A stretch of 44,291 nucleotides of DNA from Verrucomicrobiota bacterium (lineage in GTDB: Bacteria; Verrucomicrobiota; Verrucomicrobiia; Verrucomicrobiales; DEV007). The stretch covers positions 1 through 44,291 of the forward strand of contig JAJRVS010000027.1 of the NCBI GenBank assembly GCA_024277195.1, given 5' to 3'. A program made the translations under genes and the position numbers. The notes under the pieces were generated by a model. The model saw only the letters and a program-made list of their open reading frames with translations. It was not told the DNA's origin and ran no database searches. Each line of letters starts with the position of its first letter. Position 1 is the stretch's first letter. Of the stretch, positions 6,554 to 33,175 are shown in pieces.

Positions 6554-7420
6554 ATGTCCAAAATAAAATTCGGCTCACAAGTTTACACCTGGTTCATGCA
6601 GGAAACCGGTAAATCTTACGACAACAAACTCGATCACATGATCAAAACCGCTGCAGCGGCCGGTTTCAAAAGCATCGAACCGATGGTGCTCGAAATCTCC
6701 GAAAGCGCTCTCGGTTGTGGCAAATACTGGCTTGGCGATTTCTGCGACCCGATCAAACTCAAAGACAGCCTCGACGAACACAACATGGAACTCGCCGGCC
6801 TGGCTCTGGTCTGCGCCTGGGACGGTGAAGAAGAAGCCCCCAACGAACGCGCAGCCGCCGACTTCACCATGGACTTTCTCAAACATTTCCCCGGTGCCAT
6901 GATGGGCACCGTGACCCTGCCCAGCGGCCGCGCCAACGACCTGCAACGCCGACGCCTCAACGTCGCCAAAAACGTCAACGCCGTATCCAAACGCGCCGCC
7001 GACCTCGGCTTCACTTGCTCCTACCATCCCAACAGCCCACCGGACTCCCTGGTGCGCCATCAGGAAGACTACGACGTGGTGCTCAGCAGCCTCGACCCCA
7101 GTGTCACCGGTTGGACCCCCGACGTCGGACACATCATCCGCGGCGGCATGGACGTGATCGAGACCCTCAACAAGTGGTCCCACCTGGTCAACCACATTCA
7201 CTACAAAGACTTCAGCGGCAACGGCCCCGAGCCTTGGGCGCAGATGGGAACCGGCAAGCTCGACTTCCACCGCATCACCGGCTGGCTCACCCAGCACAAC
7301 TACGAAGGCTGGATCATCTGCGAAGACGAATGCGAAAAAGCGATCGACGACCCCGACGGCGTGACCATGCAAAACGGCGAATGGTGTAAAGAAAATTTAC
7401 AGCCACTAGTGCAAGGCTAA
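6554..7420 (+). CDS. TIM-barrel sugar phosphate isomerase/epimerase-like protein
   Basis: A 288-residue member of the xylose-isomerase-like TIM barrel family (AP endonuclease 2 type fold). The barrel strands carry candidate metal ligands: EPMVLEI near residue 40, HPNSPPD near 158, PDVGHIIRGG near 189, HIHYKDF near 214 and ICEDECE near 254. There is no signal peptide, so it is cytoplasmic. Relatives isomerise or epimerise keto sugars or inositol derivatives with a divalent metal; the actual substrate is unknown. The hydrolase gene lies just upstream, and an inverted repeat and a terminator follow. Confidence 0.87.
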   Translation: MSKIKFGSQVYTWFMQETGKSYDNKLDHMIKTAAAAGFKSIEPMVLEISESALGCGKYWLGDFCDPIKLKDSLDEHNMELAGLALVCAWDGEEEAPNERAAADFTMDFLKHFPGAMMGTVTLPSGRANDLQRRRLNVAKNVNAVSKRAADLGFTCSYHPNSPPDSLVRHQEDYDVVLSSLDPSVTGWTPDVGHIIRGGMDVIETLNKWSHLVNHIHYKDFSGNGPEPWAQMGTGKLDFHRITGWLTQHNYEGWIICEDECEKAIDDPDGVTMQNGEWCKENLQPLVQG

Positions 7421-7427
7421 CCCCATT

Positions 7428-7454
7428 GTAGGGCGAGCGCTCCGCTTGCCCTAC
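7428..7454. repeat. Perfect-length inverted repeat GTAGGGCGAGCG / CGCTTGCCCTAC
   Basis: Twelve-base arms GTAGGGCGAGCG and CGCTTGCCCTAC pair across a 3-base CTC loop with a single G-T wobble. It lies 8 bases after the isomerase stop and is not followed by a T run, so it looks more like a dispersed palindromic repeat than a factor-independent terminator. It could still stop or stabilise the transcript. Confidence 0.7.
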
Positions 7455-7519
7455 CTTCTCCCCGCTGCTTTACCGCACTCGACCATCGACTAGGTTAAAG
7501 CATAAATTTAACAACCAAC

Positions 7520-7548
7520 AAGCCCGCTACACAGCGGGCTTGTTTTGT
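7520..7548 (+). terminator. Rho-independent terminator
   Basis: A 9-bp stem, AAGCCCGCT with AGCGGGCTT, closes a 4-base ACAC loop and is followed by GTTTTGT. It lies about 100 bases after the isomerase stop and probably ends the hydrolase-isomerase transcript. Confidence 0.75.
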
Positions 7549-7702
7549 AAAAGACATTACAAGCGAGCTAAAATGCCAATAGGGAAAATCATAGCCCTAA
7601 CTAGAATATCAAGTTCTCCCTGAAAGGGTATTTAAATTAATCTTTTACTCACTACCCTAAAAGGTGATTGTAGCATTTTGTCATAAATGTTACTTTTAGA
7701 TC

Positions 7703-8547
7703 ATGGCTAAAACGCTCAAAACTTGTGAGACAGTCCCTCCTCTTAAATCCGAGCCTCCCTACGCAAATCAACGATTCGTCTATCAACGGTCAATCTCCGA
7801 AACACTTGGAATTCTCATCTACTTTGGAATTGGCTACTTATTCTTTGGTATTGCACTTTTTAATTTGTTTTACATCAGACCTTTTGATCCACAAGCGCAC
7901 ATCTCCGCTAGCATTTGGATCGGTGTCGTAGTCTTTGCAACGATTTCAAATTGCAAAAATATTGGCTTTCACCAGCATTGCGTCAATTTTCTTGCCGCAT
8001 TTGTTCGTAATAGATTTGTTAGCATAGAATGGAGTGGCCCTAGCGATGAAATTCTCGCTTTAGGATTCACCTTTGCTTCACATTCTTTTTACCTGTTAAA
8101 ATTCAAATCAAAAGCAATCCAAACCGTTGACTGGAGTATGGGCCAGGCGTCAGATAGAACCAAAAAGACTGCAATGATTGGTCCATAGCCATTTGGTTTG
8201 ATGCTACTTCTATCATCTACAATAAGTCTGAATACCAACAGGGAATTTGCATAATAGGATCAACCGGCAGCAAAGAATCCGTAGCTACTTGCGGAACTGA
8301 GCTAATAAAATTTCTGCTTAGCAACAATATAAACCTTCCTTCCCCTAAAAGAGAATACTGCGAACTGCCCGCAACCGCGATCGAAGATGTTTTCCCCTCT
8401 GGAAAAATTAAAGTAGCAGGAAAAATTTTCATCGGGCGATCTGCAGATGGCTTCATCCATAAAGGTCAATCTCTCCATGTTACAGACGTAGTAGGAACCT
8501 CCATTTACGTAAAAAAATCCTTACCTACTAAAGCTCCCCCTTTATAA
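7703..8547 (+). pseudogene. Membrane protein with C-terminal NfeD-like OB domain, split by a -1 frameshift
   Basis: The first frame (7703-8188) encodes two membrane segments (ILIYFGIGYLFFGIALFNLF, then IWIGVVVFATI) and a soluble part ending SMGQASDRTKK. Its continuation is open in the -1 frame from 8167 to the stop at 8545-8547 and has no ATG, GTG or TTG of its own. That second part ends with a stretch resembling the NfeD C-terminal OB fold: SGKIKVAGKIFIGRSADGF, then HKGQSLHVTDVVGTSIYVKK. Joined at CAAAAAG (8161-8167), the product would be about 281 residues. This may be a decayed gene, a sequencing or assembly indel in the A run, or programmed frameshifting. The region is AT-rich (20 G or C in the 60 bases from 7801), unlike its neighbours, which suggests foreign origin. 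Confidence 0.6.
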
Positions 8548-8549
8548 AG

Positions 8550-8693
8550 AACATAACTATTCAGGATCAAAAAGAAAGCGATGGATTTTCCATCACAAAA
8601 ACCAACTTGAACGAAGCTGCGCAATTCATCGCAGTTAGTGAAAATCTATCCTACCAACACAATCCCGAACTCGATGCTCGCCAGTATAGGGTC
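8550..8693 (+). pseudogene. Gene remnant with a secretin/STN-like short domain
   Basis: Just after the NfeD-like segment, the third plus-strand frame reads NITIQDQKESDGFSITKTN, then LNEAAQFIAVSENLSYQHN and PELDARQYRV. The spacing resembles the short secretin and TonB N-terminal domain (a leucine-rich helix, an aliphatic/aromatic strand, then a positively ended strand). There is no start codon and the frame degenerates into intergenic sequence after 8693. It is best read as a fragment of a lost gene. The rest of the gap to 8922 holds two hairpins and no other gene. Confidence 0.3.
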
Positions 8694-8733
8694 ACACCCC
8701 ACCCAATAACAATGGTGCAACCACACAGAAGGG

Positions 8734-8749
8734 CGGACATTTCTGTCCG
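8734..8749. repeat. Short hairpin CGGACA-TTTC-TGTCCG
   Basis: A perfect 6-bp stem with a 4-base loop sits within AAGGGCGGACATTTCTGTCC in the gap after the remnant. It is followed by CAAAAAAAAC, not by a T run. It may be a dispersed palindromic element. Confidence 0.45.
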
Positions 8750-8877
8750 GCAAAAAAAACAATGCCTCAACCTTACTCCCCACCACCTAGACAATCGAAG
8801 CGATCGCCCTACAATCCCCCCCCTCTTCTTCCTTATTATCCGCGCCACCCGCGGTCAACTTCTTCATATCCCCCCAC

Positions 8878-8907
8878 AAAAAAAGGGCGGGTTAAAAAAC
8901 CCGCCCT
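8878..8907 (-). terminator. Rho-independent terminator of clpB
   Basis: A 10-bp stem, AGGGCGGGTT with AACCCGCCCT, encloses an AAAA loop. On the plus strand seven A residues, counting the A that opens the stem, stand at 8878-8884, so the minus-strand transcript ends in a U run directly after the hairpin. It is 16 bases beyond the clpB stop. Confidence 0.85.
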
Positions 8908-8922
8908 CCTGTTTGTCCAGCA

Positions 8923-11499
8923 TCATCTAGTGAACACCAACTCGTCCCCTTTCGCCCCCACCTCAATCTTGTCCCCCTCACTGAATTTCCCTTCCAGGAT
9001 CTCCATGCTCAAAGGATCAAGCAAGCGTTTCTGAATCACCCGCTTCAAGGGCCGGGCTCCATAAGCAGGGTCATAGCCCTCCTTCGCCAGCAAACCCAGC
9101 GCCTCGTCATCGACAAGCAGTTCCATCCCTTGCGCTTCCAAGCGCTGCAAGACACGTTTGATTTGCAAAGTAACAATCTGCCGGATATCCCCCTCGCTCA
9201 AGCGATCAAAAATGATCGTCTCATCAATACGATTGAGAAACTCCGGGCGAAAATGACCACGCAACGCCTCCGTCACCAGAGCATCTCGTTTTTTTGGATC
9301 GTCCTCGCTCATGATATACTCACTGCCAATGTTGCTCGTCATGATGATCACCGTATGGCGAAAATCCACCGTGCGCCCCTGGCCATCGGTGATACGCCCA
9401 TCGTCCAGAACCTGAAGCAAAACGTTGAACACATCCGGATGCGCTTTTTCGATCTCATCGAACAAAATCACCGAATACGGTTTGCGCCGCACCGACTCAC
9501 TCAACTGACCGCCCTCTTCATAACCGACATAACCCGGAGGCGCTCCAATCAAACGCGACACCGCGTGTTTTTCCATATACTCGCTCATGTCGATGCGCAC
9601 CATCGCCTGTTCGTCATCGAACAAAAATTCCGCCAAAGCGCGGGACAATTCCGTCTTACCGACTCCAGTCGGCCCGAGGAATAAAAACGAACCCAGCGGC
9701 CGGTTCTCATCCTGCAATCCCGCCCGTGAGCGCCTGACAGCATTCGATACCGCCACCACGGCGTCACGCTGACCAACTACCCGGTCACCCAGACGATCCT
9801 CCATATGCACTAGTTTTTCGCGCTCGCCTTCCTGCAATCTCGAAACCGGAATACCGGTCCACGAAGCCACCACCCTGGCGATGTCCTCCTCTGTCACTTC
9901 CTCCTTGAGGATGCTGGTCTGTTGCTGCAAGTCCGCGAGTTTTTTCTGCGCATCGACCTGCTTCTCTTCCAAGCCCGGCAGCGTCCCGTATTGGATTTCA
10001 CTCGCACGTCCCAGGTCGCCCCCACGTTGCGCCTGTTCCAGTTCATTGCGCGCAGCCTCCATCTCCTCCTGAATGAGACGAGCCTCGTCGATGACCCCTT
10101 TTTCATTCTGCCACTGCGCTTTCAGATGATCTCCTTTTTCTTTCAGATCCGCCATGTCACGCTCGACTTTCTCCAAGCGCTCCTTGCTCGCCGCGTCTTT
10201 TTCTTTTTTCAAAGCCTGGCGCTCCATTTCCAACTGCATCACCTGACGATCAAGTTGATCAATCTCGGTTGGCATCGAGTCGAGTTCGATCTTCAAGCGC
10301 GAAGCCGCTTCATCAATCAAATCCACCGCTTTGTCCGGCAAAAACCGATCCGAAATATATCGGTCCGACAACGTCGCTGCCGCCACCAAAGCCGCATCCT
10401 GGATACGCACCCCGTGATGCAACTCATAACGCTCGTTGACTCCACGCAGAATCGCAATGGTATCCTCGACACTCGGCTCGTCAACCGTCACCGGCTGGAA
10501 GCGCCGCTCCAAAGCCGCGTCCTTTTCGATATACTTACGATACTCGTCCAGAGTCGTCGCGCCAATCGCATGCAACTCCCCACGAGCCAACTGCGGCTTG
10601 AGCAAATTGGACGCGTCCACCGATCCCTCCGCAGCTCCCGCACCGACGATGGTGTGCAGCTCGTCGATGAACAAAATGATCTCACCGTCGGATGAAGTCA
10701 CCTCCTTGAGAAAAGCCTTCAATCGATCTTCAAACTCGCCCCGGTATTTGGCCCCCGCCACCATCGCGCCGATATCCATCGCAATCAGTCGTTTGTTCTT
10801 CAATGAATCCGGCACATCTCCACTGACAATGCGCCGCGCCAATCCTTCGGCAATCGCCGTCTTGCCCACTCCCGGCTCACCTATCAAAACCGGATTATTT
10901 TTCCGCCGCCGGGACAGCACCTGCATCACTCGACGGATCTCATCATCACGACCGATCACCGGATCGATCTTGCCCGCCCTAGCCTGCTCGGTCAGATCCT
11001 GACCGTATTTCTCCAGCGTCTGGTATTTGCCCTCTGGATCCTGATCCGTCACCCGTTGCTGCCCACGCACCGAAGCCACCGCTTCCAGTAAACTCTTTTC
11101 CGTCGCACCCGCCTCTTTCAGCAAAGTTGTCGCATCATTTTTACTGACCAACAAACCCAACAAAAAATGCTCCACACTCAAGTAGTCGTCCTTGAGTTCC
11201 GTGCGTTTTTTATCCGCCGCTTTTAACACCGTGTTGAGTTCATCTCCCAGATAAACCTGTCCCGTTCCACTTCCGGTAACTGACGGCTGAGCCTCCAGCT
11301 TCTGCTCCAGTTTTTGCCGTAACGAGTCCACTGGGACCCCTATTTTTTCCAACACCGGACGCGACACGCCCTCGGCCTGATCCAACAAAGCACACAACAC
11401 ATGCACTGGGTTCAAGGATTGGTGGTCTTTCTCCGATGCCAGATCCTGAGCCTCACGAAGAGCTTCCTGCATCTTCAAGGTTAATTTATTTAGATTCAT
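8923..11499 (-). CDS. clpB: ATP-dependent chaperone ClpB
   Basis: A Hsp100 disaggregase of 858 residues, the usual length for ClpB. It works with DnaK to extract polypeptides from aggregates in the cytoplasm. The order is: N-domain with two Clp_N repeats (1-145); AAA-1 with Walker [14 protein letters not shown] near 205 and Walker [10 protein letters not shown]; a long coiled-coil middle domain (about 405-525, rich in E, K, Q), which distinguishes it from ClpA and ClpC; and AAA-2 with [17 protein letters not shown] near 605, Walker [15 protein letters not shown] and a C-terminal [13 protein letters not shown] sensor 2. The N-terminus [14 protein letters not shown] fits the family, so 11499 is the start. 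The upstream 130 bases are AT-rich; no CIRCE element was found. Confidence 0.97.
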
Positions 11500-29082: not shown

Positions 29083-31346
29083 TGCCCACTTTTGCCGAAC
29101 CAGTTTATTTTTGGATGCTGCTTGCGTTGATACCGCTGCTGCTATTGCGGCTACGTGCGCACCGACTCAGTCGCAAAGGCACCCCCGGACTGATCGCCAA
29201 CCGACTGCGTAACGAACTGGTCATCGGCGCCAATCCCTGGTTGCGTTGGTTGGCCTTCCTCCTCCATTGCCTGGCGCTGACCTTCATCACCCTTGCCCTG
29301 ACCCGCCCGCAATGGGGGCACGAAGAAATGCCCACCGAATCTGAAGGGCGCAACATCATCATCGCCATCGACACCTCGCGCAGCATGCTCGCGACTGATC
29401 TGCTGCCGGATCGCCTCACCCGCGCCCGCTTGGCGGCGCAGGACCTGGTGGACTCTTTACCCAATGATCGCATCGGCCTGATTGCCTTTGCCGGTCGTGC
29501 TTTTCTGCAAGCTCCCCTGACCATGGACCACATGGCCATCGTCGAAACGCTCAATCAGATTGATACGGAAGTCATCCCCCGTGGTGGAACCAACATCAAC
29601 TCCGCAGTCGCGATGGCGATCGAAACCTTCCGCAAAATCGATAGCAAAGACAATGCGCTGATCATTTTTAGCGATGGCGAAGATCTGGAAGGCGGAGAGC
29701 AGTTGGCCCAAATAGGCGAGGACGCAGAAGAACTTGGCATGGTCGTCATCGCCATCGGCGTAGGCACCCAAGCGGGCTCGATCATCCCTGATCCTAGCGC
29801 GACCAGCCCTGGAACTTTTATTAAAAATGACAACGGGGACATTGTTCGCAGTCGCCTCGACCCCGCCGCCCTACAACAGTTGAGCGCACGTACTTCACGG
29901 GGAATTTATCTCAATCTGGGCTCTGCCAGCTCGATCGCCGACATCGTCGGCAAAGCGCTAAGCCAGATCAAAACCTCTCGCCATGAAGACGCAGCGAAAA
30001 AACGTCCTATCGAGCGCTTCCTCTGGCCGCTCTCCTTCGCTTTGTTCTTTATGATCGCAGGTTTCATCCTCCCCATTTCCATCCGCCAGCAGCACCGCCG
30101 CACGACGGTTGCCACCCCTTCTCCGAGCAGTAAACCCAAACCATCCGCCACTCCGCCACCGCTGCCCGTCGTCGGTAAAACCGTCGCCCTGCTTTTATTT
30201 GCAGGATATTTTACCCTTTCCCCACCATCACTACAAGCGGAAGAATCCGATACCAAAAGCACCGCTCTGCCCGCCCTCGAATCCTACCAAAACGAAGACT
30301 ACCAAACAGCAGTCAAAAGCTACCAGCAAGAAATCGAGGAAGAAAAATCTCCGAAAAAAGAATCCCAACTCCACTTCGGCTTAGGGTCAGCCGCCTACCG
30401 AAGCGGTGATCTAGAACTCGCCGAGCAAGCTTTTGGCAAGGTGCTCGAACGTGCTAATAATAAAAAACTTAATTCCGATGCGCACTACAATCTGGGCAAT
30501 ACGCTATTCCGTCACGGCCAAACTTTGCTCAAACCAACAGCCGTAAATGACCAGCAAAGCAACAACGCTGCTGCCCCAGGCCAGCCTGACATGAAAGGAG
30601 CCACCCGCCAATGGCAAGCCGCCATCGAACACTACCAGGCAGCCCTGAAAACCAATCCCAAGCACGTCCCTGCCAATGAAAACTTAAAACTCGTGCAGAA
30701 CTACCTGAAACTTTTGCAAAAAAAACAGCAGGAACAAGAACAGAAAAAGGAGCAGCAAGAGAAAAAAGACGAAGAGAAGGACAAAGAAGAGGATAAAGAC
30801 AAAGAAGAAAATAAGGATAAGGGAGAAAAAGACGAGCAGGACAAAGACCAAGGCAAAGATCAAAAACCTGATCCCAATGGTTCTAAAAATCCCGATGGAA
30901 AACAGCCGCCTCCCAAAGATCAGGACAAAAACAGTGACGGCAAGCCCGGCGATAACAAAGATCAAAAATCCCCTCCACCCTCTGATCCAAAAAATCCGGA
31001 TGGGGAGAAAAAACCTTCTGACCCATCTAAAGACAAACAAGACGGCAAGCCGGATGACAAACAAGAGGGCAAACAAAAACCTAGTGAAAAACAACCTCCG
31101 CAACAACCCGGTCAGGCTGAGCCCAAGCAAAAAGACCCCGAAGGAAATTTAAAAGCCAATCCGAGCCAGCAACAACCCGCCCAAGCTGCCGATGCTCGCA
31201 AGGGCAAGGAAGACCAAAAGCGCAACCCGGAAACCGGCTTCTCCCCGCTAGAGGCACGCCGCTTACTGCAAAGCCTTTCGGACGAAGACCTCAGCATCAA
31301 ACCCCTGATGCGACCTGCCCCCGCCCAACCTTACAAAAACTGGTGA
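29079..31346 (+). CDS. batB: BatB-BatC fusion: vWA protein with TPR and charged tail
   Basis: A single 755-residue polypeptide. Residues 1-345 equal BatB: two N-terminal TM helices (10-24 and 58-74), a vWA domain with AIDTSRSMLAT (Asp98, Ser100, Ser102) and FSDGEDLEGG, then a TM helix at 315-334. A Pro/Ser linker leads to GKTVALLLFAGYFTLSPPSL (366-385) plus QA-EES, a signal-peptide-like segment that would be the start of a separate BatC. Residues 395-545 have at least three TPR-like units (SQLHFGLGSAAYRSGDLELA, SDAHYNLGNTLFRHG, QWQAAIEHYQAALKTNPKHV). Residues 548-720 are low-complexity Lys/Glu/Asp/Gln/Pro, and the C-terminus PLEARRLLQSLSDEDL resembles BatC ends. ATGATG begins the gene inside the batA stop. 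Confidence 0.9.
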   Translation: MMPTFAEPVYFWMLLALIPLLLLRLRAHRLSRKGTPGLIANRLRNELVIGANPWLRWLAFLLHCLALTFITLALTRPQWGHEEMPTESEGRNIIIAIDTSRSMLATDLLPDRLTRARLAAQDLVDSLPNDRIGLIAFAGRAFLQAPLTMDHMAIVETLNQIDTEVIPRGGTNINSAVAMAIETFRKIDSKDNALIIFSDGEDLEGGEQLAQIGEDAEELGMVVIAIGVGTQAGSIIPDPSATSPGTFIKNDNGDIVRSRLDPAALQQLSARTSRGIYLNLGSASSIADIVGKALSQIKTSRHEDAAKKRPIERFLWPLSFALFFMIAGFILPISIRQQHRRTTVATPSPSSKPKPSATPPPLPVVGKTVALLLFAGYFTLSPPSLQAEESDTKSTALPALESYQNEDYQTAVKSYQQEIEEEKSPKKESQLHFGLGSAAYRSGDLELAEQAFGKVLERANNKKLNSDAHYNLGNTLFRHGQTLLKPTAVNDQQSNNAAAPGQPDMKGATRQWQAAIEHYQAALKTNPKHVPANENLKLVQNYLKLLQKKQQEQEQKKEQQEKKDEEKDKEEDKDKEENKDKGEKDEQDKDQGKDQKPDPNGSKNPDGKQPPPKDQDKNSDGKPGDNKDQKSPPPSDPKNPDGEKKPSDPSKDKQDGKPDDKQEGKQKPSEKQPPQQPGQAEPKQKDPEGNLKANPSQQQPAQAADARKGKEDQKRNPETGFSPLEARRLLQSLSDEDLSIKPLMRPAPAQPYKNW

Positions 31347-31357
31347 GAACCTTAGTT

Positions 31358-33175
31358 ATGACATCTCCTTTCTCATTTTTTACTTTTAAAATCCTACTCG
31401 GAAATAGACTCCCCATCAGTGCTGCGATCATCGCCGCACTGACTATCTGCTTATTTCCCTTCACCACCTGGTCACAGCAGGCCGGCCGGGAAACCAAAAT
31501 AACCAGCCTGTTGCACAGCCGTAAAATTGCCATCGGTGAAACCGGAGTTTTTGCCATTCAAGTCGACAATGGCACCCTAGATGAAGCTCCTCGAGTGATC
31601 AAGGCCCCTGGGCTCGACATCATTTTTCAGGGTCAAAACTCCAGTCTGAGAATTCTCAATGGAGTCAGTAGTAATCAAACACTCTACTACTACGTGGTCA
31701 GTGGTCAGAGCGCCGGCAATTTCACCATCCCGGCACTCAGCTTGAACGTCCGGGGCAAAATCTATACCACCAAACCTGCCAGTTTGGTGGTCTTCAAACG
31801 CAAAGCAGGCGATCTGAGTTTGGACGCGTCCAAACCCTACTTCCTCCGGCTCACCGCTCCTAAAACCGCACTTTACGTCAACCAGATCGTGCCACTGGAG
31901 CTGACTGCCTTTGTCCGCGGTCAAGGCAGCATTTATGAAATTGGAGCCCCCGACTTGAAGAACGAAAACATGATCATCAAACCCTTCCAGCGTAATGTCG
32001 CTCAAGGCAATCTGATGATCGATGCCTACGAGTATTCCACCGCAAAAATCCAAGGCTCCATTTTTCCCATCCAGCCCGGTCAACAAGTTCTGCAATCCGC
32101 CAATCTGCGCTGCCGTTTCATCGACCGAAGCACCCGGGTGGGAGGTGGCCTACGCAGCCTATTCACCCAGACCATCACCCGCACCCTGCAAAGCAACTCA
32201 CTCACCTTCGATGTCAAACCCTTGCCATCAGAAGGCAAACCCACCAGCTTCTCGGGTGCGGTGGGAAATTTTAATATGGAAGTCAAAGCCTCACCGCTCA
32301 AGCTGCAGGCCGGCGATCCTATTTCCATCGACATCACCGTCGAAGGGATCGGCAACTTTGACCGCCTCGCCGCACCCACCTTCCTCAGCCAGGACCCGAA
32401 GAAATGGCGCACTTACGAAGCACGGAAAACCATCGACCCCAATGAGAAATCCGACGGGGTAGTGCCAGGCAAAAGCACCTTCACCCAGATCATCATCCCT
32501 TTAGGTGAAAGCAATGAACTGCCGCCTTTTGAAATCAGCTTTTTCGATCCTGAAACAGAAAAGTATGTCACCCGTCGCTCGTTGCCCATCCCACTGGAAA
32601 TCGCCCCCGACATACGCCCCTCCAACTCCGGGGCAACGCTCTCTGCAGGCGGCCATTCATCCGGCACGGGCTCCGTCACCGCTCCACCCAGTCCTAACTT
32701 TGACGACATTCTCTACATCCGCAAAAACAAACCGCACAACCGCAGCATCCAGGCCTCCCTGCAGCACCGTCCGGCTTTCTGGTTTGCCCAAGTCGTCCCG
32801 CTACTTCTGCTTGGCTGGATTTTAACAATTGCCCTGCTTCGTTTTGCCAAACTAAAAGGACTAGGTGCCAAAAACACCCAAACAAAAATCGATTACCATC
32901 AAGTGAGAAGCGGGGTAGACGCCTCAGCCTCTGCTCGTGCCGATTATTACAAAAAAATCGAGGAATGCCTCAACGCCTGGCAACAACAAAACAAGCAGCC
33001 ACTCGACTCCCAACCCGATACTCTCAAGGCTGGTTTCAACGCTCTGAATTCCCGCTGCCAGTGGATCCTATACGGAGCACCAGAAAGCGACCGCCATGCG
33101 CCTCCTACTGAACAGGAAACCACCGAGGCCAGACAAATCCTCGACGGCCTTTCCCAAAATCTGACATCCGCTTGA
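31358..33175 (+). CDS. batD: BatD: oxygen-tolerance type membrane protein
   Basis: A roughly 605-residue protein. An N-terminal hydrophobic signal or anchor (AAIIAALTICLFPFTTWS, ending near Gln-Gln) precedes a long beta-rich periplasmic region of repeated immunoglobulin-like folds (IAIGETGVFAIQVDNGTL, QTLYYYVVSGQSAGNFTIP, FSGAVGNFNMEVKASPLKLQ). One transmembrane helix near the C-terminus (WFAQVVPLLLLGWILTIALL) leads to a short cytoplasmic helical tail. This is the BatD/oxygen-tolerance family layout. A GTG at 31343 overlaps the stop of the preceding gene; the ATG at 31358 is also usable. The spacing implies cotranscription with batB-batC and batE. Confidence 0.88.
   Translation: MTSPFSFFTFKILLGNRLPISAAIIAALTICLFPFTTWSQQAGRETKITSLLHSRKIAIGETGVFAIQVDNGTLDEAPRVIKAPGLDIIFQGQNSSLRILNGVSSNQTLYYYVVSGQSAGNFTIPALSLNVRGKIYTTKPASLVVFKRKAGDLSLDASKPYFLRLTAPKTALYVNQIVPLELTAFVRGQGSIYEIGAPDLKNENMIIKPFQRNVAQGNLMIDAYEYSTAKIQGSIFPIQPGQQVLQSANLRCRFIDRSTRVGGGLRSLFTQTITRTLQSNSLTFDVKPLPSEGKPTSFSGAVGNFNMEVKASPLKLQAGDPISIDITVEGIGNFDRLAAPTFLSQDPKKWRTYEARKTIDPNEKSDGVVPGKSTFTQIIIPLGESNELPPFEISFFDPETEKYVTRRSLPIPLEIAPDIRPSNSGATLSAGGHSSGTGSVTAPPSPNFDDILYIRKNKPHNRSIQASLQHRPAFWFAQVVPLLLLGWILTIALLRFAKLKGLGAKNTQTKIDYHQVRSGVDASASARADYYKKIEECLNAWQQQNKQPLDSQPDTLKAGFNALNSRCQWILYGAPESDRHAPPTEQETTEARQILDGLSQNLTSA

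Follow-up and report, generated by a model that had tools for sequence, protein, structure and literature searches.

How is a gene read when it lies in two frames, the second without a usual start codon? The window analyzed here, a stretch of 44,291 nucleotides from a Verrucomicrobiota genome (assembly G000: 5.49 Mb, 422 contigs, 95.6 percent complete), raises this question at positions 7703-8547, where a first-pass annotation saw two plus-strand frames parted by a single -1 step and considered that the step might be programmed. We think it very probable that the locus is a rare verrucomicrobial membrane gene with a C-terminal NfeD domain, residing in a laterally variable slot and split by one recent, non-programmed one-base step, either an indel mutation or an assembly error. 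An ordinary break is the most likely reading because relatives are unbroken, a recoding signal was not found, and the two frames make up one homologous protein.

One protein in two frames

The 5' frame, taken as the 0 frame, runs from the ATG at 7703 to the TAG at 8186-8188 and is open for 161 codons (161 residues). The -1 frame is open for 129 codons, from 8158 to the TAA at 8545-8547; the chance of 126 open codons at the local base composition is about 6e-4. The second frame was said to have no start codon, and indeed ATG, GTG and TTG are all absent from 8158-8547, while CTG, ATT, ATC and ATA codons are present. The parts of the gene are:

7703-8188, plus strand: 5' gene part, with two hydrophobic segments and, up to GQASDRT, the N-terminal half of a probable PH-like domain
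8158-8547, plus strand, -1 frame: 3' gene part, with the remainder of the probable PH-like domain (DCNDWSIAIWF...) and the NfeD domain
8371-8517, plus strand: NfeD domain (PF01957), matched by Pfam and by PDB 3wwv

The frames overlap, one base out of step, only at 8158-8185, so that any frame switch must fall there; the sequence CAAAAAG (8161-8167, plus strand) lies inside this overlap.

Do the two frames belong together? A profile was built from three homologues only (L040, L041 and L042, listed below), the window sequence being left out to avoid circularity, and was run against every six-frame segment of the window that is 30 residues or longer, 806 in total. The two frames took ranks 1 and 2, with E values of 1e-13 (frame starting at 7700) and 4e-8 (frame starting at 8158), the third-best segment reaching E 0.54, and they cover consecutive model positions, 39-146 and then 148-208. 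The conserved GQA is read in the 0 frame and the conserved D..DW in the -1 frame, which narrows the step to about 8158-8169, bounded by the position where the -1 frame opens and by the first conserved Asp read in it (near 8169). The first-pass view that the frames are sensible only together is borne out by this profile, and its placement of a single -1 step near CAAAAAG is good to within about a dozen bases. Neither half (7703-8188 or 8158-8547) holds an extra stop or frame step. Judged from sequence comparison, the two frames encode one homologous protein.

What sort of protein would this be? The N-terminal part was taken for a membrane segment, in agreement with two hydrophobic stretches in the 0 frame (19-residue peaks that begin at residues 35 and 66; the relatives have such segments too). 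The NfeD-like OB domain proposed for the C-terminus is recognized by PF01957 in the second frame above the curated cut-off (E 2.2e-7, 31.4 bits against 29.1), and PDB 3wwv, a stomatin operon partner protein, matches the same part at E 5.9e-5. The middle region is probably PH-like. Its AlphaFold model, of low confidence (mean pLDDT 49.6), has a run of strands followed by a helix, and a Foldseek search with this model, which we take as a hint only, returned PH domains among its matches (best E 0.022, none at 0.001). A DUF4429 match to the Persicirhabdus protein is subthreshold (E 0.0058).

Relatives and the AT-rich slot

A read-through query, with X at the junction, matched 51 of 384 genomes of the class at E up to 0.1, its own genome included, most of them in the NfeD part alone. 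Two matches cross the junction in one open frame, those in G455 (E 3.3e-13) and G590 (E 1.2e-10), and one in G706 (E 1.4e-6) connects the middle region with the NfeD region; the other weak read-through matches were not used, nor was a weak match in G778 (E 8.3e-4). An alignment-based profile scan of the genome contigs found four loci:

L040 (the G455 locus): Persicirhabdus sediminis, 228 aa, single frame
L041 (the G590 locus): Kiruna_bin-02725, single frame
L042: RI_372, single frame
L043 (the G706 locus): Verrucomicrobiales MAG, on the same contig as L018

Each of the three full-length homologues is one uninterrupted open frame (228, 243 and 243 aa), so the comparison that the first-pass annotation had proposed finds three relatives that read straight through. 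None of L040, L041 and L042 has an NfeD match. The G706 relative, L018, is 5'-truncated and without the N-terminal part; in it the last part of the middle domain and an NfeD domain (E 1.2e-7) share one frame at 1507-1938. We note a palindromic repeat just upstream of this truncated relative, near 1413-1436.

The L040 and L041 relatives are 22-26 percent identical to the window protein, and the homologue-only profile matches across the middle domain in register, which places the protein in the Persicirhabdus-type membrane family. How widespread is the gene? Searching 95 relatives with the 0 frame matched its own genome alone, and with the -1 frame 2 of the 95: its own genome and G031, the latter with an OB-type match. 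Profile searches returned only its own genome and G455 among 387 genomes of the phylum, and these two and one weak match among 386 genomes of the order. Single-frame searches for close relatives gave OB-domain matches only, or nothing; a genome-contig search with the second frame alone confirmed none of 66 candidate stretches; the viral contigs gave 0 of 10; and there was no match among plasmids and phages or in PHROGs, while NCBIfam matches were all subthreshold. The gene is a rare, patchily distributed member of a verrucomicrobial membrane-protein family, a distribution in keeping with lateral gain.

The surroundings of the gene are as follows:

6554-7420, plus strand: left neighbour, sugar-phosphate-isomerase-like (named by eye), conserved, 95 percent identical in the congener G001
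7421-8922, no strand: AT-rich variable slot, flanked by the isomerase-like gene and clpB
8923-11499, minus strand: right neighbour, ClpB-like (named by eye), conserved, 93 percent identical in G001

The first-pass annotation had placed an AT-rich island at about 7.5-8.7 kb, and the two lowest in G+C of the 88 500-base bins do lie there (0.388 at 7501-8000 and 0.410 at 8001-8500, against a mean of 0.521). It had also read the island as a sign of transfer. The gene's absence from congeners and its patchy occurrence are in keeping with this part of the claim, though no donor was found in the genomes searched. In G001 hydrolase-like, isomerase-like and ClpB-like neighbours stand in the same order, and the slot holds a 263-aa SnoaL-like gene; in a second congener, G002, the isomerase-like gene is followed by a DNA-glycosylase-like gene on the opposite strand (named by eye), the contig stopping before clpB. 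The content of 7421-8922 thus differs in three congeners, with the window gene, the SnoaL-like gene and the glycosylase-like gene as occupants. As far as sequence comparison goes, the slot appears laterally variable and the patchy gene in keeping with lateral gain.

Several further features of the region were seen. Inverted 24-nt arms at 7425-7448 and 8792-8815, 88 percent complementary, bracket the island, and the left arm is part of a dispersed REP-like palindrome with 10 genome copies at up to 3 mismatches (none for a reversed control). Strong hairpins at 7517-7544, after the isomerase-like gene, and at 8885-8908, after clpB, resemble intrinsic terminators, the latter as read by eye. On the 3' side of the NfeD frame, at about 8607-8690, a leftover of the SnoaL-like gene of G001 seemed possible by eye but found no support: the best tblastn match, E 0.17, lies elsewhere, Pfam gave none, and there is no genome copy. 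Elsewhere in the window AT skew is unusual at 30501-31500 (0.585 and 0.317) relative to the rest.

Programmed shift or ordinary break?

Could ribosomes shift by -1 on A_AAG, yielding both a membrane form of only 161 residues and a longer one with NfeD? The A_AAG tetramer (8164-8167) sits within the frame overlap at 8158-8185, a slip at that point would put the following residues in the family's register, neither half is otherwise damaged, and a passage in PMC4066793 describes AAG, with its lysyl-tRNA, as prone to shift in E. coli. Against this, the annotation's likening of the site to an A-AAA-AAG heptamer fails on phase: it is read C_AAA_AAG, which is not a canonical X_XXZ_ZZN heptamer and leaves the A_AAG tetramer only, and the P-site AAA would have to re-pair with CAA. 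The same source, in the part that bears on such Z_ZZN tetramers in E. coli, has them require a strong stimulator. None was found: the 30 bases upstream hold none of the SD-like motifs sought, and no fold was found downstream, where the native RNA is matched or outdone in stability by most shuffled versions of itself (174 of 200 and 195 of 200). Nor is the heptamer conserved in homologues, the junction codons carrying an A-run in none of the four relatives (L040, L041, L042 and L043), all of them distant and only one, 5'-truncated, with the NfeD fusion. Among the genomes searched the frame shift is a singleton, and, according to a passage in PMC3711429, homology-confirmed singleton frame transitions are likely to reflect either sequencing errors or recent indels. 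The short form would, moreover, break off inside a conserved domain instead of at the boundary of one. The idea that the two forms differ by the whole OB domain holds insofar as the short one lacks all of NfeD, but it would also lose the second half of the middle domain. Programmed shifting is therefore, on phase, missing stimulator, relatives and singleton status, improbable. A lineage-specific variety of it, in which a laterally gained gene would use the bare A_AAG to yield both a short membrane product and a longer one bearing an NfeD scaffold-binding domain, seems to us slightly less probable again. As A_AAG is a known bacterial slippery tetramer, low-level shifting may occur at the site.

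Might each frame instead be a gene of its own, the first for a short membrane protein and the second for an NfeD-like protein begun at a non-standard start or by coupling? The CTG, ATT, ATC and ATA codons of the second frame, and its overlap with the first frame's stop, would allow it. The usual starts are lacking, however, the family profile passes from one frame to the other inside one domain, and the relatives are single genes; we regard this reading as very unlikely. More improbable still is transcriptional slippage restoring the frame in part of the mRNA. There is a run of five A at the junction, but this is short against the nine A or T at which, according to a passage of PMC1088944, a large share of genomes shows clear signs of selection against runs prone to slippage, and a longer run of seven A at 8511 in the same gene is without a step.

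An ordinary break thus remains the reading we prefer. Because neither half has another lesion, the event would be recent or artificial, and a real mutation would be a recent one. Is the assembly at fault? From 43 ORFs of the window with matches on the G001 contig, 14 evident genes were chosen (leaving aside shadow frames and, at 39.6-43.6 kb, two distant matches), and none of these 14 syntenic orthologues, about 18.4 kb in all, has a frame break. This bounds the local error rate, loosely, at about 3 in 18,000 (rule of three, 95 percent); it speaks weakly against an assembly with many errors and so makes somewhat more room for a real biological origin. The sequence data are compatible with either a real indel or an assembly error. 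If the sequence stands as read, the cell would make only the 161-residue form, which keeps the membrane segments but lacks the whole NfeD domain and the latter half of the middle one; such a product is probably non-functional. The intact protein would be membrane-anchored, and its NfeD domain might be available to an SPFH (flotillin- or stomatin-type) scaffold, a role suggested by analogy with a passage in PMC11222466 linking NfeD to SPFH scaffolds in a different organism.

Comparison with known systems

Genes with programmed -1 frameshifts, such as dnaX and those of the IS3 family, resemble the window gene in having overlapping frames and a -1 step at an A-rich site, and differ in that neither heptamer, stimulator nor conservation was found here. 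As a frameshift the case is ordinary, and its main lesson is that recoding should not be called on the strength of a single sequence.

The likeness to NfeD proteins lies in the C-terminal partner-binding domain (PF01957; PDB 3wwv), for which the window domain passes the Pfam cut-off and matches 3wwv. Unlike NfeD proteins proper, it follows a probable PH-like domain and has no SPFH gene in its slot: no flotillin/SPFH gene lies next to it, the neighbours being the isomerase-like and ClpB-like genes, and the four Band_7 matches of the genome, which has three NfeD-domain matches, are all on other contigs. The combination of membrane segments, a probable PH-like domain and NfeD is unusual, and we did not find it described in a limited literature search; a probable PH-like membrane protein fused to NfeD is of modest interest for bacterial membrane-scaffold biology. 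Set beside the Persicirhabdus sediminis family of L040, L041 and L042, which are read in one frame and have no NfeD match, the window protein shares the two hydrophobic N-terminal segments, the pattern W..GQ......D..DW and, after it, G...KE.....G......F.
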